Made by a program: the position numbers and the translations under genes
In this document: piece after piece, positions 46,363-52,905 of the stretch
How positions within the stretch are numbered: position 1 is the stretch's first letter
How the letters are laid out: each line of letters opens with the position of its first letter
Assembly: GCA_003249255.1 (NCBI GenBank)
Contig: QKJP01000026.1
Location: 186,001-250,000 of the forward strand
Direction: 5' to 3'
Source of the DNA: Bacteroidales bacterium
Lineage (GTDB): Bacteria; Bacteroidota; Bacteroidia; Bacteroidales; Marinilabiliaceae
Length of the DNA stretch: 64,000 bases
The notes under the pieces: generated by a model
The model's input: the letters and a program-made list of their open reading frames with translations, nothing else
Told to the model about the DNA's origin: nothing
Databases searched by the model: none

Positions 46363-46417
46363 AAAAATGTGGCTTTTACATTGTGAGGAATTACAGCTTC
46401 TTGGCAATGTAAAAGCC
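46360..46417 (-). terminator. Terminator overlapping the 3' end of the methyltransferase gene
   Basis: A perfect 13-bp inverted repeat, GGCTTTTACATTG (46371-46383) and CAATGTAAAAGCC (46405-46417), with a 21-base loop containing the stop codon at 46391. An A run at 46360-46366 gives T residues after it on the minus strand. One arm lies in the last codons of the gene (GFYIAK). Confidence 0.75.
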
Positions 46418-47137
46418 ATAACCATAGAAGTTATGGTATTTATTAAAAATGGCTATGTCTTTTTTTTCCTCCTCAACGATGTCTTGAGCTTCCAGCGAAT
46501 GATTGTATTTTTGTAAAAATGCTTCAAATCCATTCTCAAGCGGTTTGTAATAGTTTTCCATCCAACAATCTTTCGAAATAATAAAGTGTGCAACCGGAGA
46601 ATATCCGTTGCTTTCTAACTTGCGTATATTGCCAGAAACAGTATCTATCTGAGGATATTCTTTTTGCCAATGCGCTGTTAGTTCTTCCGGACGTTCATTG
46701 CTTAACCACGATATTTCAGATACAGCGATGTAGCCTCCTTTTTTTAGGAATTGTTTCCAATAATTTATACCAGCTTCAAATCCCATGTTATAAATGGCCC
46801 CTTCGGACCAAATTAAGTCAAAAGTTTCTTGGTCAAAAGAAAGCTGATCCATCGAGCCGGCTCTTGTGTTTATATTGTTTAGTTTTAATTTATGTGCAGT
46901 TCGATTGAGTTTGTTAAGAAAAACCGGATAGATGTCAATTGCGGTAATTGCGGCTTTTGTGTTTTTGGCAAGTGTTATGGTTTGCGCTCCGGTGCCACAG
47001 CCAATGTCAGCGATTTTTATTGAGTTTTCAGGGCTTAGACCTGTTAACTCAAAAGCCTTCATGGTTGTTTCGTCATTTCCGGGACCTTGTCTATGGTTGG
47101 TGATGTGTAAATCAATCAATAATTCTAATTCATCCAT
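46391..47137 (-). CDS. Class I SAM-dependent methyltransferase
   Basis: 248 aa. The SAM-binding motif I is IADIGCGTGAQTITLA, motif II ITAIDIYPVF (Asp binding ribose), and LIWSEGAIYNMGFEAG follows as the family's motif IV-like region. The C-terminus GYGFYIAKKL is also usual for this UbiE/small-molecule-type group. The substrate is unknown. It is monocistronic and ends in a long hairpin. Confidence 0.88.
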   Translation of the reverse strand: MDELELLIDLHITNHRQGPGNDETTMKAFELTGLSPENSIKIADIGCGTGAQTITLAKNTKAAITAIDIYPVFLNKLNRTAHKLKLNNINTRAGSMDQLSFDQETFDLIWSEGAIYNMGFEAGINYWKQFLKKGGYIAVSEISWLSNERPEELTAHWQKEYPQIDTVSGNIRKLESNGYSPVAHFIISKDCWMENYYKPLENGFEAFLQKYNHSLEAQDIVEEEKKDIAIFNKYHNFYGYGFYIAKKL

Positions 47138-47243: not shown

Positions 47244-49091
47244 CTAAATAACCGGAATCATGAGATTATTGTATGTTTTTACGTTGCCTTGGTGTTGATT
47301 TAAATTTTCAACTTTAGCATGTAACTGATGGGTTATGACTTCTAGTTCCAGTACCGCGGTGGTAACATCATTAGAAAGAGAATTTGTTTTTTCAAGGTTA
47401 TTCGAAGCTGCTTTGATTTTCTCTTGAATGCTGTTAAATAAGCTTAGGATTTCTTCTGAATATGGCTCTATTTTTCCGGCCTCATCTGAAGTTTCATTGG
47501 CTAGTTTTCTCACTTCATTGGCTACAATCGAAAAGCCTTTTCCTGCTTGACCGGCTCTTTTAGCCTCAATGCTTGCATTTAGTGCTAATACATTTGTTTC
47601 GAGAGAGATGTTGTTTATTTTTTCAGAAATCGATTTAAAACTTTCCAGGATATTAAAATCAGTTTCTATTTGGGCGTTTAAATGTGAAAATGACTTGAGT
47701 TGTTCTTCATAGTTTTTACTAAGTTCCAGAATTTTTAATCTAATTTGGTTATTCTGTTTATTCACTTCTTTCATGGTGAATGCTACCTCCTGAGTCATTT
47801 CACTTATTTGTGCTTCCTTGTAGAAATGGCAATTGTTAACCTGGTTTAAACCATTATAAATGGCTTTAGCCATATCTTTACAGGTTCCATATCCACATGC
47901 CGCACAGTTGTATTCGTCTTCCGGTTTGTATTTTTTGAGTGATTCGTAGATGTTTTTAAGTTCAATCTCATTTATTTCTTTGACGTTATTTAAATGCGAC
48001 TTGTCAACGTATTTGCGTGAATATATACCCGGTTTCCAATAGTTATTTACTTGTTTTTGAATGTTGTTTTTCTTTTTGAAACTGAGAATTGTTGATTTTT
48101 GGTTTTTCGAGATGTGAACCTTTGTTCTTTTTTGAAGATAATAATCTTGTTCATCTAATGATAAATTACTGTTTTGTGCACCGGTTCCTTTATTACAACC
48201 ATGTTCACAATTTAAACAATCGATTAAAAGCGGAGCAACATCTTTTTGAATACTTTCGGATAGATTATTTAAGTATGGGTATAACACTTTTGCACCTTCT
48301 ATTTTACGAGCCATACTTTTAATGCCCGGAGCTTCCCTTTCAGCAGTTTCCAATAATCCACCCGGAGCAGAGAAGAGAACTCCACGTTCTGCTGCCGGAT
48401 TGGTATATTCAATTGCCGGGTATGCGGTTATTTGAATCTGATTATTTTTTAAATACTCATGAATCGAATCAAACGTAACATTTAAAACATGTTCTCTTAC
48501 CGAATCAAACTCTTGTTTTTTAGTTGCGCATGGAGAAATAACGACAATCTTATGGTTTTGATATTCCGGATAAAAATGTTTGATCATTTTAATGGTGTGC
48601 ATCATTGGACTATCTACCGGAGCCAAATATTTGATGAGTTGGGGTTGATAGATTTCAATGTAATTGACCACAACAGGGCAAGGCTGAGCAATTAGTGTTT
48701 CTACTTTTTGCTTTTTGATTTCTTCTAAATATGATTTGATGGTCAATTCAGCACCAAAGCTGACATCAAAGTAGGCTTTAATACCTAAACTTTCCAACCA
48801 GCCATTAAGGTGCAAATATGTTTTAGGAAAATAAGTTGCAATGGCCGGTGCAATAATGGCGACCGTTTTTTGGTGACGTTTGTTTTTACCTACCAATTGA
48901 TGAATGTCATCGTTAAAAGTACGGGCTTTATGAGTGCATTTTTGAACACAGTTTCCACAACCAATACATAGGTTTTCATTTATCTTAACATAATTGCCAC
49001 TACTGTCGTTGCAAAATTTTACAGGGCAACTTGAAATGCAGTTATGACAATTGCTGCATTTTTCTTCATCCACATGGATTAGCTTTCTCAT
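47244..49091 (-). CDS. Ferredoxin - [FeFe]-hydrogenase-like - 4Fe-4S - chemoreceptor signalling fusion protein
   Basis: 615 aa, no TM segments. Domains in order: two [4Fe-4S] motifs (C12/C15/C18/C22 and C42/C45/C48/C52); a hydrogenase large-subunit-like domain (about 75-310); a 4Fe-4S domain with CAACGYGTC (396-404) and C421; and a methyl-accepting-type signalling hairpin (about 490-540, [18 protein letters not shown] and [12 protein letters not shown]). H-cluster motifs compared with active enzymes: L1 TSCCP reads AQPCP (C138 kept, the preceding Cys lost), L2 PCxxKKxE is SPCATKKQE (C188 kept), L3 MACPGGC is CLNCEHGC (C295 and C299 kept). So all four cubane ligands remain, but the proton-path Cys is missing. 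It is probably a redox or H2-related sensor, not a catalyst. No maturase genes are nearby. Confidence 0.87.
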
Positions 49092-49700: not shown

Positions 49701-50837
49701 ATGTATAGATTGTTAAGTGGTTTATGTTTGATCTTTAGTTTACTGTCATGTCAGGATTTTAAGTCTTCAAAATCAACGGCTAATGTAACTCACCCTGATA
49801 GTGTACTAGTGCCAAAATATGCAAAGCGTTTTTCGATAAGTTATTTTAAAGGATATAAAGTCATTCATCTTAAAGATCCTTGGACTCCTGATACCAAATC
49901 AACCGATGTTTTTTTGTCCTCTGACTCTTCAATTGTAAAGACATTTGAAAAAGAGGGGAAGTTGGCTATTCAAACGCCAATTACAAAATGGGTAGCATTA
50001 TCCTCAACAATGGTAAATTTTGCCGATGAACTTGATGTGAAAAATACCATAAGAGGAGTTGCAGAACCGCAATATATTTCCGATTCAATTATTCAAAATG
50101 GGATTGAAAAAGGTAAGATTGTAAATGTAGGAACAGCCTTTGCACCTGATGTTGAAAAACTAATTGATTTAAATCCTGATTTTGTAATGAATTCTCCTTT
50201 TAAAGAAGATTATTCCGGAGCTATTCGTAATGCCGGGATTAAAGTAGTTGCAAACTCCAGTTATTTGGAAAACCATCCTTTAGGTAGAACAGAATGGATT
50301 CTGTTTATGGCAAGCTTTTTCGATAAAGAAGAAAAAGGGCTTTGCTATTTTCAGCATATCGAGCAAGAATATTTGGCAGTAAAAGCCCTAACAGACTCTG
50401 TAAAAGACAAACCTTCCGTGTTTACCGGTTATGTTTATCAAGGGATCTGGCACACTCCGGCAGGTGAAAGTTACAAAGCCAATTTTTTTAAGGATGCCGG
50501 TACCAATTACATCTATCGAGAGACTAAAGGGCAAGGCTCTCTCTTTTTAGATTTTGAAACCATGCTGGATAAAGCCCATGATGTGGATTATTGGATGCTG
50601 ATACTGCGCAATGAGGGACCAGTCGATTATTCGACAGTTTTAAGTATGGATAGTCGTTACCGGGACTTCAAAGCTTTTAAGCAAAAACAAATTGTTTACA
50701 CCAATGCGGCTATTTCCGGTTATTACGAAGAAGGTGTGCTTCAGCCTCATGTTGTTTTAAAAGATTTAGTCAATGCTTTTCATCCAGGATTATTAAAAGA
50801 TTATTCACCGGTTTATTTTAGTCGTTTAGAAAATTAA
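49701..50837 (+). CDS. ABC transporter substrate-binding lipoprotein (BtuF/FecB-like)
   Basis: 378 aa. Lipoprotein signal with Cys17 (LLSC). Class III substrate-binding fold: IRGVAEPQYISDS, VGTAFAPDVEKLIDLNPDFVM and a conserved ENHPLGRTEWI segment. Such proteins bind corrinoids, heme or ferric siderophores in the periplasm. It starts an operon with permease and ATPase genes (5 bp gap to the next). A corrinoid substrate is suggested only by the riboswitch-controlled receptor at 56.5-59.2 kb; an iron complex is equally possible on sequence alone. Confidence 0.88.
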   Translation: MYRLLSGLCLIFSLLSCQDFKSSKSTANVTHPDSVLVPKYAKRFSISYFKGYKVIHLKDPWTPDTKSTDVFLSSDSSIVKTFEKEGKLAIQTPITKWVALSSTMVNFADELDVKNTIRGVAEPQYISDSIIQNGIEKGKIVNVGTAFAPDVEKLIDLNPDFVMNSPFKEDYSGAIRNAGIKVVANSSYLENHPLGRTEWILFMASFFDKEEKGLCYFQHIEQEYLAVKALTDSVKDKPSVFTGYVYQGIWHTPAGESYKANFFKDAGTNYIYRETKGQGSLFLDFETMLDKAHDVDYWMLILRNEGPVDYSTVLSMDSRYRDFKAFKQKQIVYTNAAISGYYEEGVLQPHVVLKDLVNAFHPGLLKDYSPVYFSRLEN

Positions 50838-50842
50838 TTACT

Positions 50843-51877
50843 ATGAATATAAAGCATAGGCGAGTGGCTTATTTGTTAATCCTATTGTTGTTGGTATTAC
50901 TTTTTCTAATTAATATCGGCTATGGATCGGTAGATATTCCATTAAATGAAATTTTTTCAGTTTTAATGGGAGGTGAAGCCTCTAAATCAGCCTGGACTTC
51001 AATTGTTATAAATACACGTTTGCCACAAACCATTACGGCTTTGTTAGCAGGGGCAGGTTTGGCCATTGGGGGGTTACAAATGCAGACCTTATTTAGAAAC
51101 CCTTTAGCCGGACCATCCATACTTGGAATTTCCAGTGGGGCTGGTTTAGGCGTTGCACTTCTACTGTTAGTTGCCGGTAATATTTTTGGTTTTTCCATTA
51201 GCGGTTTTGGTGCTTTAGGTCACATGGCGGTTGTGGTAGCGGCTTTTTCAGGAGCATTTCTGGTTTTATTGTTAATCGTCTTTTTTTCCCGATTGTTAAA
51301 TGATAATTCAATGCTTTTAATTGTGGGTATCATGATTGGATATGCCGCAGCTTCGGTTATTGGTGTGATGAAGTATTACAGCCCAAAAGAAGATGTTCAT
51401 GCCTATGTAATTTGGGGATTAGGAAGTTTTTCAAGCGTATCTTGGGGACAGCTAGGTGTGTTTGCAACAGTTATTATTCTAGGATTGATTTTTAGTTGCT
51501 TGTTAATTAAACCCCTTAATATTTTGGTGTTGGGAGAGAATTATGCTTATAATTTGGGACTAAATATAAAACGTACCCGATTATTTTTGTTGCTGTGTAC
51601 CGGTGTGCTAACTGCTGTAATAACTGCTTTTTGTGGGCCTATTGCATTTTTGGGATTGGCCGTGCCGCATTTAACCAAGGGATTGTTTAGAACCTCGGAT
51701 CAAAAAATATTAGTACCTACCGTTATTTTAACCGGAGCAGTGATGGCATTGTTTTGTAATTTTATTGCTCGCATGCCCGGCTTTGATACGGCACTTCCTA
51801 TTAATGTGGTAACGGGTATTATTGGAGCTCCCATTGTGATATCTGTTGTTTTGAAACGTCGCCGTATTAGTGCATAA
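50843..51877 (+). CDS. ABC transporter permease, FecCD/BtuC family
   Basis: 344 aa with about ten TM helices. Family markers: NTRLPQTITALLAGAGLAIGG near the start, RNPLAGPSILGISSGAGLG, and the coupling region CGPIAFLGLAVPHLTKGLFR before the last helices. It forms the homodimeric channel of a class II importer. The gene lies between the binding protein and the ATPase with gaps of 5 and 11 bp. Confidence 0.92.
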   Translation: MNIKHRRVAYLLILLLLVLLFLINIGYGSVDIPLNEIFSVLMGGEASKSAWTSIVINTRLPQTITALLAGAGLAIGGLQMQTLFRNPLAGPSILGISSGAGLGVALLLLVAGNIFGFSISGFGALGHMAVVVAAFSGAFLVLLLIVFFSRLLNDNSMLLIVGIMIGYAAASVIGVMKYYSPKEDVHAYVIWGLGSFSSVSWGQLGVFATVIILGLIFSCLLIKPLNILVLGENYAYNLGLNIKRTRLFLLLCTGVLTAVITAFCGPIAFLGLAVPHLTKGLFRTSDQKILVPTVILTGAVMALFCNFIARMPGFDTALPINVVTGIIGAPIVISVVLKRRRISA

Positions 51878-51888
51878 TCTTTAAGTTT

Positions 51889-52905
51889 ATGAGTTTGTTG
51901 TTAGAAACTAATAATCTATCCGTTGGTTATTTCGAGAAGAAAGGGCAACCTAAATGTATTCATCAGAATATAAATGTTTCTCTGGCACATGGTGAATTTG
52001 CTTGTTTGTTAGGACCCAACGGTGCAGGTAAATCAACCTTGATCAAAACTCTTAGCGGTTTTATTCCCCTGATCGATGGAGAGGTGATAATTAATGGGCA
52101 GCAGTTGGGAGAGATAAGGCGAGAAGAACGGTCAAAAACCATTAGCGTAGTTCTTACCGAAAAGCTTCAAACCCCTAACATGACTGTTTTTGATGTGGTT
52201 TCTTTAGGGAGAGTTCCTTATACCGGGTTCTTTGGCCGTTTAACCCAAAATGATGAAACACTTGTAGAAAAAGCCATTGTGGATGTAGGACTAAAAGGTT
52301 TTTCAAATCGTCAGATCTTACAGATGAGTGATGGCGAGCGGCAAAAGGTGATGATTGCTAAAGCTTTGGTTCAGGATACGCCCTTGATCATTTTAGATGA
52401 GCCAACTGCTTTCTTAGATCTTCCTAGTCGTGTTGAAATCATTCAATTACTCCGAAAGTTGGCCAAGGAACAACACAAAGCTATTCTTTTGTCGACGCAT
52501 GATTTAGATTTGGCTTTGCAGTTAGCCGATAAAGTGTGGTTGTTATCGCAGGGTAAAAACCTGATGTATGGAGTTCCTGAAGACTTGGTCTTGTCCGATG
52601 GATTCCGCCAGTTTTTTGAGAAGGATGGTGTTCTTTTTGACAATGAAAGTGGCTCCTTTAAGGTATCTGCTGATGAACTGAAAAGTATTAAAGTAGTCGG
52701 AACCGGTTTAGAGTATAAATGGGTGAGTAGAGCCTTGGCGCGAAAAGGTTTTAAAACAACCGATGAAAAAGGTGATTACCCGGCCGTAGAGATTAGTACC
52801 GATGAAAAACAGCACTATAGAGTTACCTTGGCCGATGGTTCTCAAACTTACCTAAGAACCATTGAAGATTTGCTGGAGCATATTTGCAAGCAGTATGATG
52901 AGTAG
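51889..52905 (+). CDS. ABC transporter ATP-binding protein with C-terminal extension (BtuD/FecE-like)
   Basis: 338 aa. Walker A GPNGAGKST, Walker B LIILDEPT, H-loop STHD. The signature normally LSGGQ reads MSDGERQ, a common FecE/BtuD-type change. The core ends near residue 255; an extra 80-residue tail with an alpha/beta pattern (VVGTGLEYKWVSRALARKGF...VTLADGSQTYLRTIEDLLE) is absent from the short family members and may be regulatory. It completes the importer operon. Confidence 0.9.
   Translation: MSLLLETNNLSVGYFEKKGQPKCIHQNINVSLAHGEFACLLGPNGAGKSTLIKTLSGFIPLIDGEVIINGQQLGEIRREERSKTISVVLTEKLQTPNMTVFDVVSLGRVPYTGFFGRLTQNDETLVEKAIVDVGLKGFSNRQILQMSDGERQKVMIAKALVQDTPLIILDEPTAFLDLPSRVEIIQLLRKLAKEQHKAILLSTHDLDLALQLADKVWLLSQGKNLMYGVPEDLVLSDGFRQFFEKDGVLFDNESGSFKVSADELKSIKVVGTGLEYKWVSRALARKGFKTTDEKGDYPAVEISTDEKQHYRVTLADGSQTYLRTIEDLLEHICKQYDE

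Follow-up and report, generated by a model that had tools for sequence, protein, structure and literature searches.

A soluble chemoreceptor with a group C2-type [FeFe]-hydrogenase-like module, a putative sensor of H2 or redox state, in a Bacteroidales bacterium

Group C2 of the [FeFe]-hydrogenases has been listed in HydDB (2016) as "Chemotactic (putative)" (PMC5037454, Table 1): As in the protein described here, an H-domain is joined to a methyl-accepting chemotaxis (MCP) output and H2 sensing is putative, and the accessible part of that account gives no details of the metal site, the outputs, the operon or the host. The group C protein TmHydS of Thermotoga maritima likewise has an H-domain in which the relay cysteine is replaced (PMC10055695), and it shares the N-terminal and C-terminal Fe-S domains of groups C and D (PMC8163306). 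In TmHydS, however, the relay residue is Ala rather than Pro, the M353 and M497 places are taken by Gly and Ser rather than by Ser and Leu, and the output is a PAS domain instead of an MCP module (PMC10055695). The group D protein TamHydS agrees with our protein in the Ser at M353, the Leu at M497, the Cx2Cx4Cx16C motif and the loss of the group A proton-path residues, but it has no PAS domain and the accessible part of its description mentions no output domain, whereas our protein has an MCP output (PMC8163306). The kind of protein studied here thus already has a name, since it fits group C2; we infer this from HydDB's description of the group and not from a comparison with HydDB sequences.

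Chemotaxis receptors usually steer the flagellar motor, and FrzCD of Myxococcus xanthus steers gliding reversals. The best solved matches to the hairpin tip of our protein belong to what we take to be the Tm14-type soluble chemoreceptor of T. maritima (PDB 3g67 and 3g6b; tip fragments 3ur1 and 4jpb), which has a similarly short MCP hairpin and which, unlike our protein, is to our knowledge without a hydrogenase sensor. FrzCD, too, is a cytoplasmic MCP, but it binds DNA whereas our protein has a metal-site sensor instead (PMC12077210).

The receptor gene lies on the minus strand of a 64,000-nucleotide stretch of a Bacteroidales genome (the window; all feature coordinates of the gene refer to its minus strand). 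It covers 47244..49091 with the ATG at 49091 and encodes 615 amino acids; the plus-strand reading of 47244-49091 is full of stops. The first-pass annotation had described a single protein composed of two ferredoxin-type clusters, a hydrogenase H-domain, a further 4Fe-4S domain and an MCP hairpin, and Pfam confirms this architecture, with matches far beyond chance for Fe_hyd_lg_C, PF04060 and MCPsignal. The two ferredoxin-type 4Fe-4S motifs (residues 6-56, 48924..49076; Pfam Fer4 matches within residues 5-72) contain C12, C15, C18 and C22 as well as C42, C45, C48 and C52, with C27 as an extra cysteine. The H-domain (residues 75-302, 48186..48869; Fe_hyd_lg_C, E=4.6e-30) was also recognised by Foldseek: All 50 listed matches in the PDB were [FeFe]-hydrogenases or hydrogenase subunits of the same fold (best E 2.4e-17). 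It is followed by the C-terminal Fe-S site (residues 394-422, 47826..47912; PF04060, E 5.8e-7), in which C396, C399, C404 and C421 make up the Cx2Cx4Cx16C motif, by the ascending signalling helix (residues 422-512, 47556..47828), by the MCP hairpin tip (residues 496-530, 47502..47606) and by the descending hairpin helices (residues 514-610, 47262..47552). In the AlphaFold2 model, a monomer without cofactors computed from a 30-row alignment (mean pLDDT 84.7), residues 422-512 form a single long helix that breaks at residue 513 and is followed by helices 514-539 and 541-610, i.e. an MCP hairpin. The MCPsignal match (residues 486-597, E 6.2e-23) spans positions 36-147 of the 172 of the profile, and both profile ends are missing. 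The tip itself is conserved as judged by Pfam, phmmer and tip comparison; among PDB chains, phmmer found 4jpb_B as the best solved MCP chain (E=2.3e-15, residues 470-550), which is presumably part of a receptor-CheA-CheW complex. Residues 426-615 matched neither of two rough consensus patterns for methylation sites. In agreement with the earlier description, no transmembrane helix was detected in a Kyte-Doolittle scan; since the highest 19-residue mean was only 1.1, the receptor should be soluble.

Related proteins are widespread. Among 149 relatives of the window's genome, the 430-aa sensor half revealed a sharp gap between orthologues at about 50% identity and a group at about 30%, and one member of the latter that was scanned fully (L044) is a histidine-kinase-linked sensor. 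These relatives are mostly metagenome assemblies, and copy counts are not independent. In named genomes, at least 453 related stretches were found; the best 80 of these, at 46-55% identity, span eleven phylum-level groups by record title: Spirochaetota, Bacteroidota, Acidobacteriota, Desulfobacterota, Bacillota, Ignavibacteria/Chlorobiota, Planctomycetota, Verrucomicrobiota, Riflebacteria, Fibrobacter and Auribacter. An MCPsignal output is present in 68 of the best 80, a SpoIIE domain in four and HisKA in another four; two of the remaining four stop soon after the Fe-S site, and the other two have a PAS domain alone, in one case in a protein truncated at a contig end. We therefore rejected the possibility that only the window's genome has the MCP fusion. 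The MCP part, the loss of which in close homologues would have spoken against a receptor, is kept in most of them, and six proteins among the window's relatives carry a PAS-SpoIIE output. In three relatives (L084, L145 and L147) the hairpin has a deviant tip, TKIIAFNAELEASSxG, in which the usual RAG is lost; judged from this motif, these hairpins may not bind CheA and CheW in the customary manner.

The metal site is conserved throughout the family. Our alignment comprised 98 rows, 18 from the window's genome and its relatives and the best 80 of the at least 453 named-genome stretches, four of the named rows being contigs already included. The eight N-terminal cluster cysteines are present in all 97 rows that reach this region. 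The four cysteines expected to hold the H-cluster, C138, C188, C295 and C299, each occur in 98 of the 98 rows, and so do S186, P187, K191, E194, D291, C292, L293 and G298 as well as C396, C399, C404 and C421 of the C-terminal Fe-S site. Three motifs surround the putative cluster. In L1 (Q136-P137-C138-P139, 48675..48686), proline takes the place where the proton-relay cysteine would be; P137 is found in 96 of the 98 rows, with Ala in the other two, and Q136 in 97. L2 (S186-P-C188..K191..E194, 48510..48536) has Ser at the M353 place, and L3 (D291-C292-L293-N-C295-xx-G-C299-N-K-G302, 48186..48221) has the extra C292 and Leu at the M497 place; both places were set by alignment with group A rows, in what we take to be the numbering of CpI. 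The retained cysteines and the AQPCP and CLNC peculiarities pointed out in the first-pass annotation are thus common to the family. The DCL of L3 was found in 39 of 39 C2 rows and in none of the 33 other rows compared, and in the C1, C2 and C3 rows, the window protein included, the alignment has a gap where the Glu stretch of the proton path would be. With Pro137 in place of the relay cysteine, the gap at the Glu stretch, and NCBIfam scores of 129 bits for TIGR04105 (cut-off 450) and 91 bits for TIGR02512 (cut-off 406), the catalytic features of groups A and B are lacking. How such a site might behave can be judged from studied proteins: TamHydS, with Leu and Ser at the M497 and M353 places, nevertheless has an active, if slow, H-cluster (PMC8163306), whereas M497L in a prototypical enzyme prevented proper insertion of the [2Fe] part (PMC10055695, section 6). 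Given the latter result, we count the invariant Leu against an H-cluster in our protein. Proline at the relay place has been given for about 10% of the HydDB sensory sequences (PMC10055695, section 6), a share that would fit with C2 members.

In a 72-row tree of the H-domain, the 39 C2 rows including the window protein form one side of a branch (support 100/99), separate from groups A, B and C1/C3. The rows were chosen from fetched loci (39 of the 98 C2 rows, with some group A and B loci omitted), the labels A, B, C1 and C3 come from NCBIfam and Pfam matches, scores and motifs rather than from HydDB sequences, the C1 and C3 rows are intermixed so that these labels do not separate, and the bootstrap was unsettled (correlation 0.95); HydDB sequences, TmHydS and TamHydS are outside the tree. 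Such a tree had been proposed in order to place the protein among the HydA, HydS and HsfB groups, and it does not join the window protein to the HsfB-like row (L006, labelled by architecture), which is the only one of its kind and sits on a very long branch. Membership in the HsfB-like proteins or group D does not fit: The protein has a fused MCP part, and the tree, built without TamHydS, keeps the HsfB-like row apart. Within C2, a nested clade (100/96) unites 12 of the 13 non-MCP rows, and the remaining one, L120, is placed elsewhere. The output has thus been exchanged at least once, and probably twice, as judged from the tree. In the literature that we searched, which covered few of the subscription papers, we found neither an experimental paper on C2 proteins nor any account of C292 and the invariant pocket set, of a phased linker, of a che operon or of a host without a FliG match. 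C2 hits in acetogens were dropped after checks in one study, in which the [FeFe] checks required the H-domain cluster motif (PMC9431212).

How could such a sensor address the receptor part? C421, the last ligand of the C-terminal Fe-S site, directly precedes the signalling helix in the AlphaFold2 model. For groups C and D, exactly the same motif has been described (PMC8163306). In 80 MCP-form proteins the distance from C421 to the hinge is mainly 141, 92, 88, 127, 85 or 113 residues, and 45 of the 80 lengths equal 1 modulo 7, among them that of the window protein (92); a common out-of-phase length is 88 residues (nine proteins). When the proteins were grouped into 23 clusters by linkage at 40% identity, 15 of the 23 shared one heptad phase (binomial 3e-8; this and the following p values are given before a factor of 7 that corrects for choosing the phase). 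If repeated lengths are collapsed into one, 7 of 15 lengths are in phase in the cluster set (p 0.003) and 7 of 22 overall (p 0.03); a length of 59, wrongly measured for the gene's second copy (see below), is one out-of-phase entry among the 22 lengths and is not among the 15. Since the signal becomes much weaker in this way and independence matters, the result is suggestive only. The phased linker would fit a continuous coiled coil from the Fe-S domain to the tip. Because C421 abuts the helix and the spacing between this cysteine and the hairpin tip tends to differ by multiples of seven residues, the data suggest that the Fe-S domain moves the signalling helix directly. For TamHydS it was found that H2 does not reduce the C-terminal cluster, which may still have a structural role (PMC13104023); the C2 geometry fits this structural reading.

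As regards a chemotaxis output, CheW domains were found in 61 of the 64 genomes of a second, overlapping C2 set, and in the three others the C2 protein is of the non-MCP type (one fragment, one histidine kinase and one SpoIIE protein); all 47 genomes with the MCP form have CheW as compared to 14 of 17 with other forms (Fisher p 0.016). Che genes lie within 4.5 kb of the receptor gene in at least 7 of 93 loci, a lower bound due to the few query proteins and the overlap filter, by which the CheW- and CheB-like ORFs of locus L139 were missed. In the Riflebacteria locus L110, the order by Pfam is CheY-like receiver, CheA, receptor, CheW, CheB and CheR, and if the first Met is taken, the start codons of the receptor, CheW and CheB genes each share one base with the stop codon before them; judged from its ORFs, L139 resembles this order. 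In Brevinematales L080, CheB and CheR come after the receptor, and then a receiver-like ORF and CheW. L081:5584-7044 encodes a 487-aa C2 sensor that lacks an MCP part; CheR- and CheB-like ORFs come next. There is no conserved gene neighbourhood among the loci; the commonest neighbour family, a response regulator by sequence, occurs in 8 of 94. The window gene has no che neighbour, either among the window ORFs or among the CheW-domain matches of the genome. A class I methyltransferase gene (46391-47137) lies on the same strand 106 bp downstream, and its product gave no CheR match. Beyond the start of the receptor gene, a probable ABC importer of the iron/siderophore type, consisting of binding protein, permease and ATPase, was recognised by eye on the plus strand (49701-52905).

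As had been observed earlier, CheA, CheW and HydEFG genes are absent from the window; HydG (above the cut-off) and CheW-domain genes are encoded elsewhere in the 4.55-Mb source assembly. The search of this genome that the first-pass annotation had called for, which covered HydG and the che components, yielded HydG and both che components: There are two CheA proteins confirmed by Pfam, which account for two of the seven CheW-domain matches, and the gene cluster on contig C53 reads by eye as cheB, cheD and cheR, too. MCPsignal matches number 30, including the window gene and its second copy. The search for flagellar and gliding genes covered FliG and GldJ: A profile search for FliG_C gave no match in this genome, and GldJ was found just above the cut-off (461.5 versus 458.2 bits); the output of the receptor is therefore probably not flagellar. 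Five further H-domain matches were found, four of them in one region of contig C37, which encodes two group A-like HydA proteins (one by NCBIfam, one by score and motif), a C3-like sensor beside a SpoIIE-type gene, with a PAS-like stretch visible by eye but no PAS match, and one HsfB-like protein. The fifth, on C58 (L008:8400-10220), is the second copy of the receptor gene, 68% identical to the window protein in the sensor half. It has an in-frame TGA after the L1 motif, which we count against our main reading, and in the relative G002 both copies are broken as well; sequencing error, decay or recent loss may lie behind this. The second copy is adjoined by an L-lactate-type MFS transporter gene and then by pflA and pflB (L008:10763-15174; NCBIfam over cut-off), and in Spirochaetia L098 and L141, related MFS genes likewise occur close to the receptor gene.

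An H-cluster of the usual kind would call for maturation. In the first set of 64 C2 genomes, HydG was above the cut-off in 48 and HydF in 51, while 12 had neither. In 11 of these 12 genomes a group A-like or group B hydrogenase is present (in G174 as judged from the Pfam score only), and in the twelfth, G135, the C2 gene is represented by a fragment; the gaps therefore look like missing contigs rather than maturase-free sensors, and we rejected them as evidence that the sensor works without maturases. Among the 149 relatives, full HydG was present in 12 of 15 C2 genomes and in 76 of 134 others (p 0.10), with a strict E-value that leaves out HydG fragments in two of the 15. Strict co-occurrence of C2 and HydG was thus not significant, which we also count against our main reading. 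Eleven genomes with catalytic-looking [FeFe]-hydrogenases lack HydF and HydG over the cut-off (G157, G165, G166, G172, G174, G183, G184, G185, G188, G190 and G196, the last with nine H-domain matches); these are probably assembly gaps, and if real, they would indicate an unusual maturation.

We consider it probable, though by no means certain, that a non-catalytic or slow [FeFe]-hydrogenase of the C2 kind serves as the sensor of this protein, which would be a cytoplasmic chemoreceptor passing a putative H2 or redox signal to CheA/CheW in a bacterium that seems to lack the flagellar motor. Several observations support a sensor with a chemotaxis-type output: the MCP part in 68 of the best 80 of at least 453 relatives, the che genes beside at least 7 of 93 loci, CheW in all 47 MCP-form genomes, and the HydG, CheA and CheW genes of the source genome. 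From the single sequence, a sensor of H2 or redox state with such an output had been judged plausible, and the comparative evidence agrees with this. The invariant metal site, the C2 clade, the match to TamHydS, the HydG/HydF genes, the L110 operon and the heptad phase speak for this reading as well, whereas the small share of loci with che genes, the lack of such genes beside the window gene, the missing methylation consensus and the weakening of the phase signal with distinct lengths speak against it. We propose that H2, or a low-potential electron pool via the two N-terminal clusters, would set the state of an H-cluster with C138, C188, C295 and C299 as its ligands. As the usual proton-relay residues are missing, turnover would be slow and the site might report its occupancy or redox state rather than act as an enzyme. 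The H-domain would then alter how the C-terminal Fe-S domain, with its last ligand abutting the signalling helix, is packed, and a shift or twist could travel down the coiled coil to the hairpin tip and change the activity of CheA in a CheA/CheW array. In this host, with GldJ but no FliG found, the response may be gliding behaviour or another output of CheA, and both its direction and its target belong to the proposal, as do the occupancy of the H-cluster, H2 as the signal and the mechanical coupling. It is tempting to go further and to imagine a widespread C2 chemosensory system for H2 in which a remodelled pocket (Pro137, Cys292, Leu293 and Ser186) moves a heptad-phased Fe-S domain, giving CheA a mechanical readout of H2 occupancy, the sensor head has moved, mostly in one nested clade, to PAS-SpoIIE and histidine kinase outputs, and gliding or something else is steered in non-flagellated bacteria; this full picture is possible, but we regard it as doubtful.

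H2 might also not be the signal at all. A redox receptor could read the ferredoxin/flavodoxin pool through the N-terminal clusters, the H-domain being an electron sink or a structural relay, as the invariance of the eight N-terminal cysteines, the loss of the proton-relay residues and the position of the second copy near pflA and pflB in a fermentation locus might suggest. We hold this to be unlikely, since the invariance of the H-cluster ligands and of several pocket residues across the eleven phylum-level groups of the best 80 of at least 453 relatives is hard to explain if the site merely relays electrons; moreover, H2 still reacts with sensory enzymes whose relays are just as broken (PMC8163306, PMC10055695). 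That the H-domain holds a cubane [4Fe-4S] cluster alone, or another metal centre that uses C292 and is not matured by HydEFG, seems rather more unlikely: The same Leu/Ser pair does not keep TamHydS from holding an H-cluster (PMC8163306), and the 12 of 64 genomes with neither HydF nor HydG, which would favour such a centre, look like incomplete assemblies as set out above. Still, the invariant C292 close to C295 remodels the pocket together with Pro137 and Leu293, and M497L blocked [2Fe] insertion in a prototypical enzyme (PMC10055695).

The other doubts concern the output. The hairpin may be vestigial or non-chemotactic and serve dimerisation alone or another partner; the same sensor carries PAS-SpoIIE and histidine kinase outputs, most loci are without a che neighbour, the Pfam match lacks both profile ends and no methylation consensus was matched, and three relatives have the deviant tip. 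The well-conserved tip of the window protein with 4jpb_B as its best solved match and the Riflebacteria operon with cheA, cheW, cheB and cheR make this improbable. An ordinary catalytic hydrogenase or electron carrier with an incidental receptor tail would account for the retained H-domain fold and cofactor ligands, but it is scarcely credible in view of the absent proton-relay Cys and Glu stretch, the clade apart from groups A and B, and the scores far below the TIGR04105 and TIGR02512 cut-offs.

Our preferred reading of the protein as an H2- or redox-responsive chemoreceptor has a practical side: As the C2 output is fused straight to the C-terminal Fe-S domain and some of the genes lie in che operons, signal transmission by sensory [FeFe]-hydrogenases could become addressable by a standard CheA kinase assay. 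If this reading is true, C2 proteins would be candidate receptors for H2 taxis or for gliding guided by H2 across some eleven phylum-level groups of bacteria, as counted in the best 80 of at least 453 relatives.
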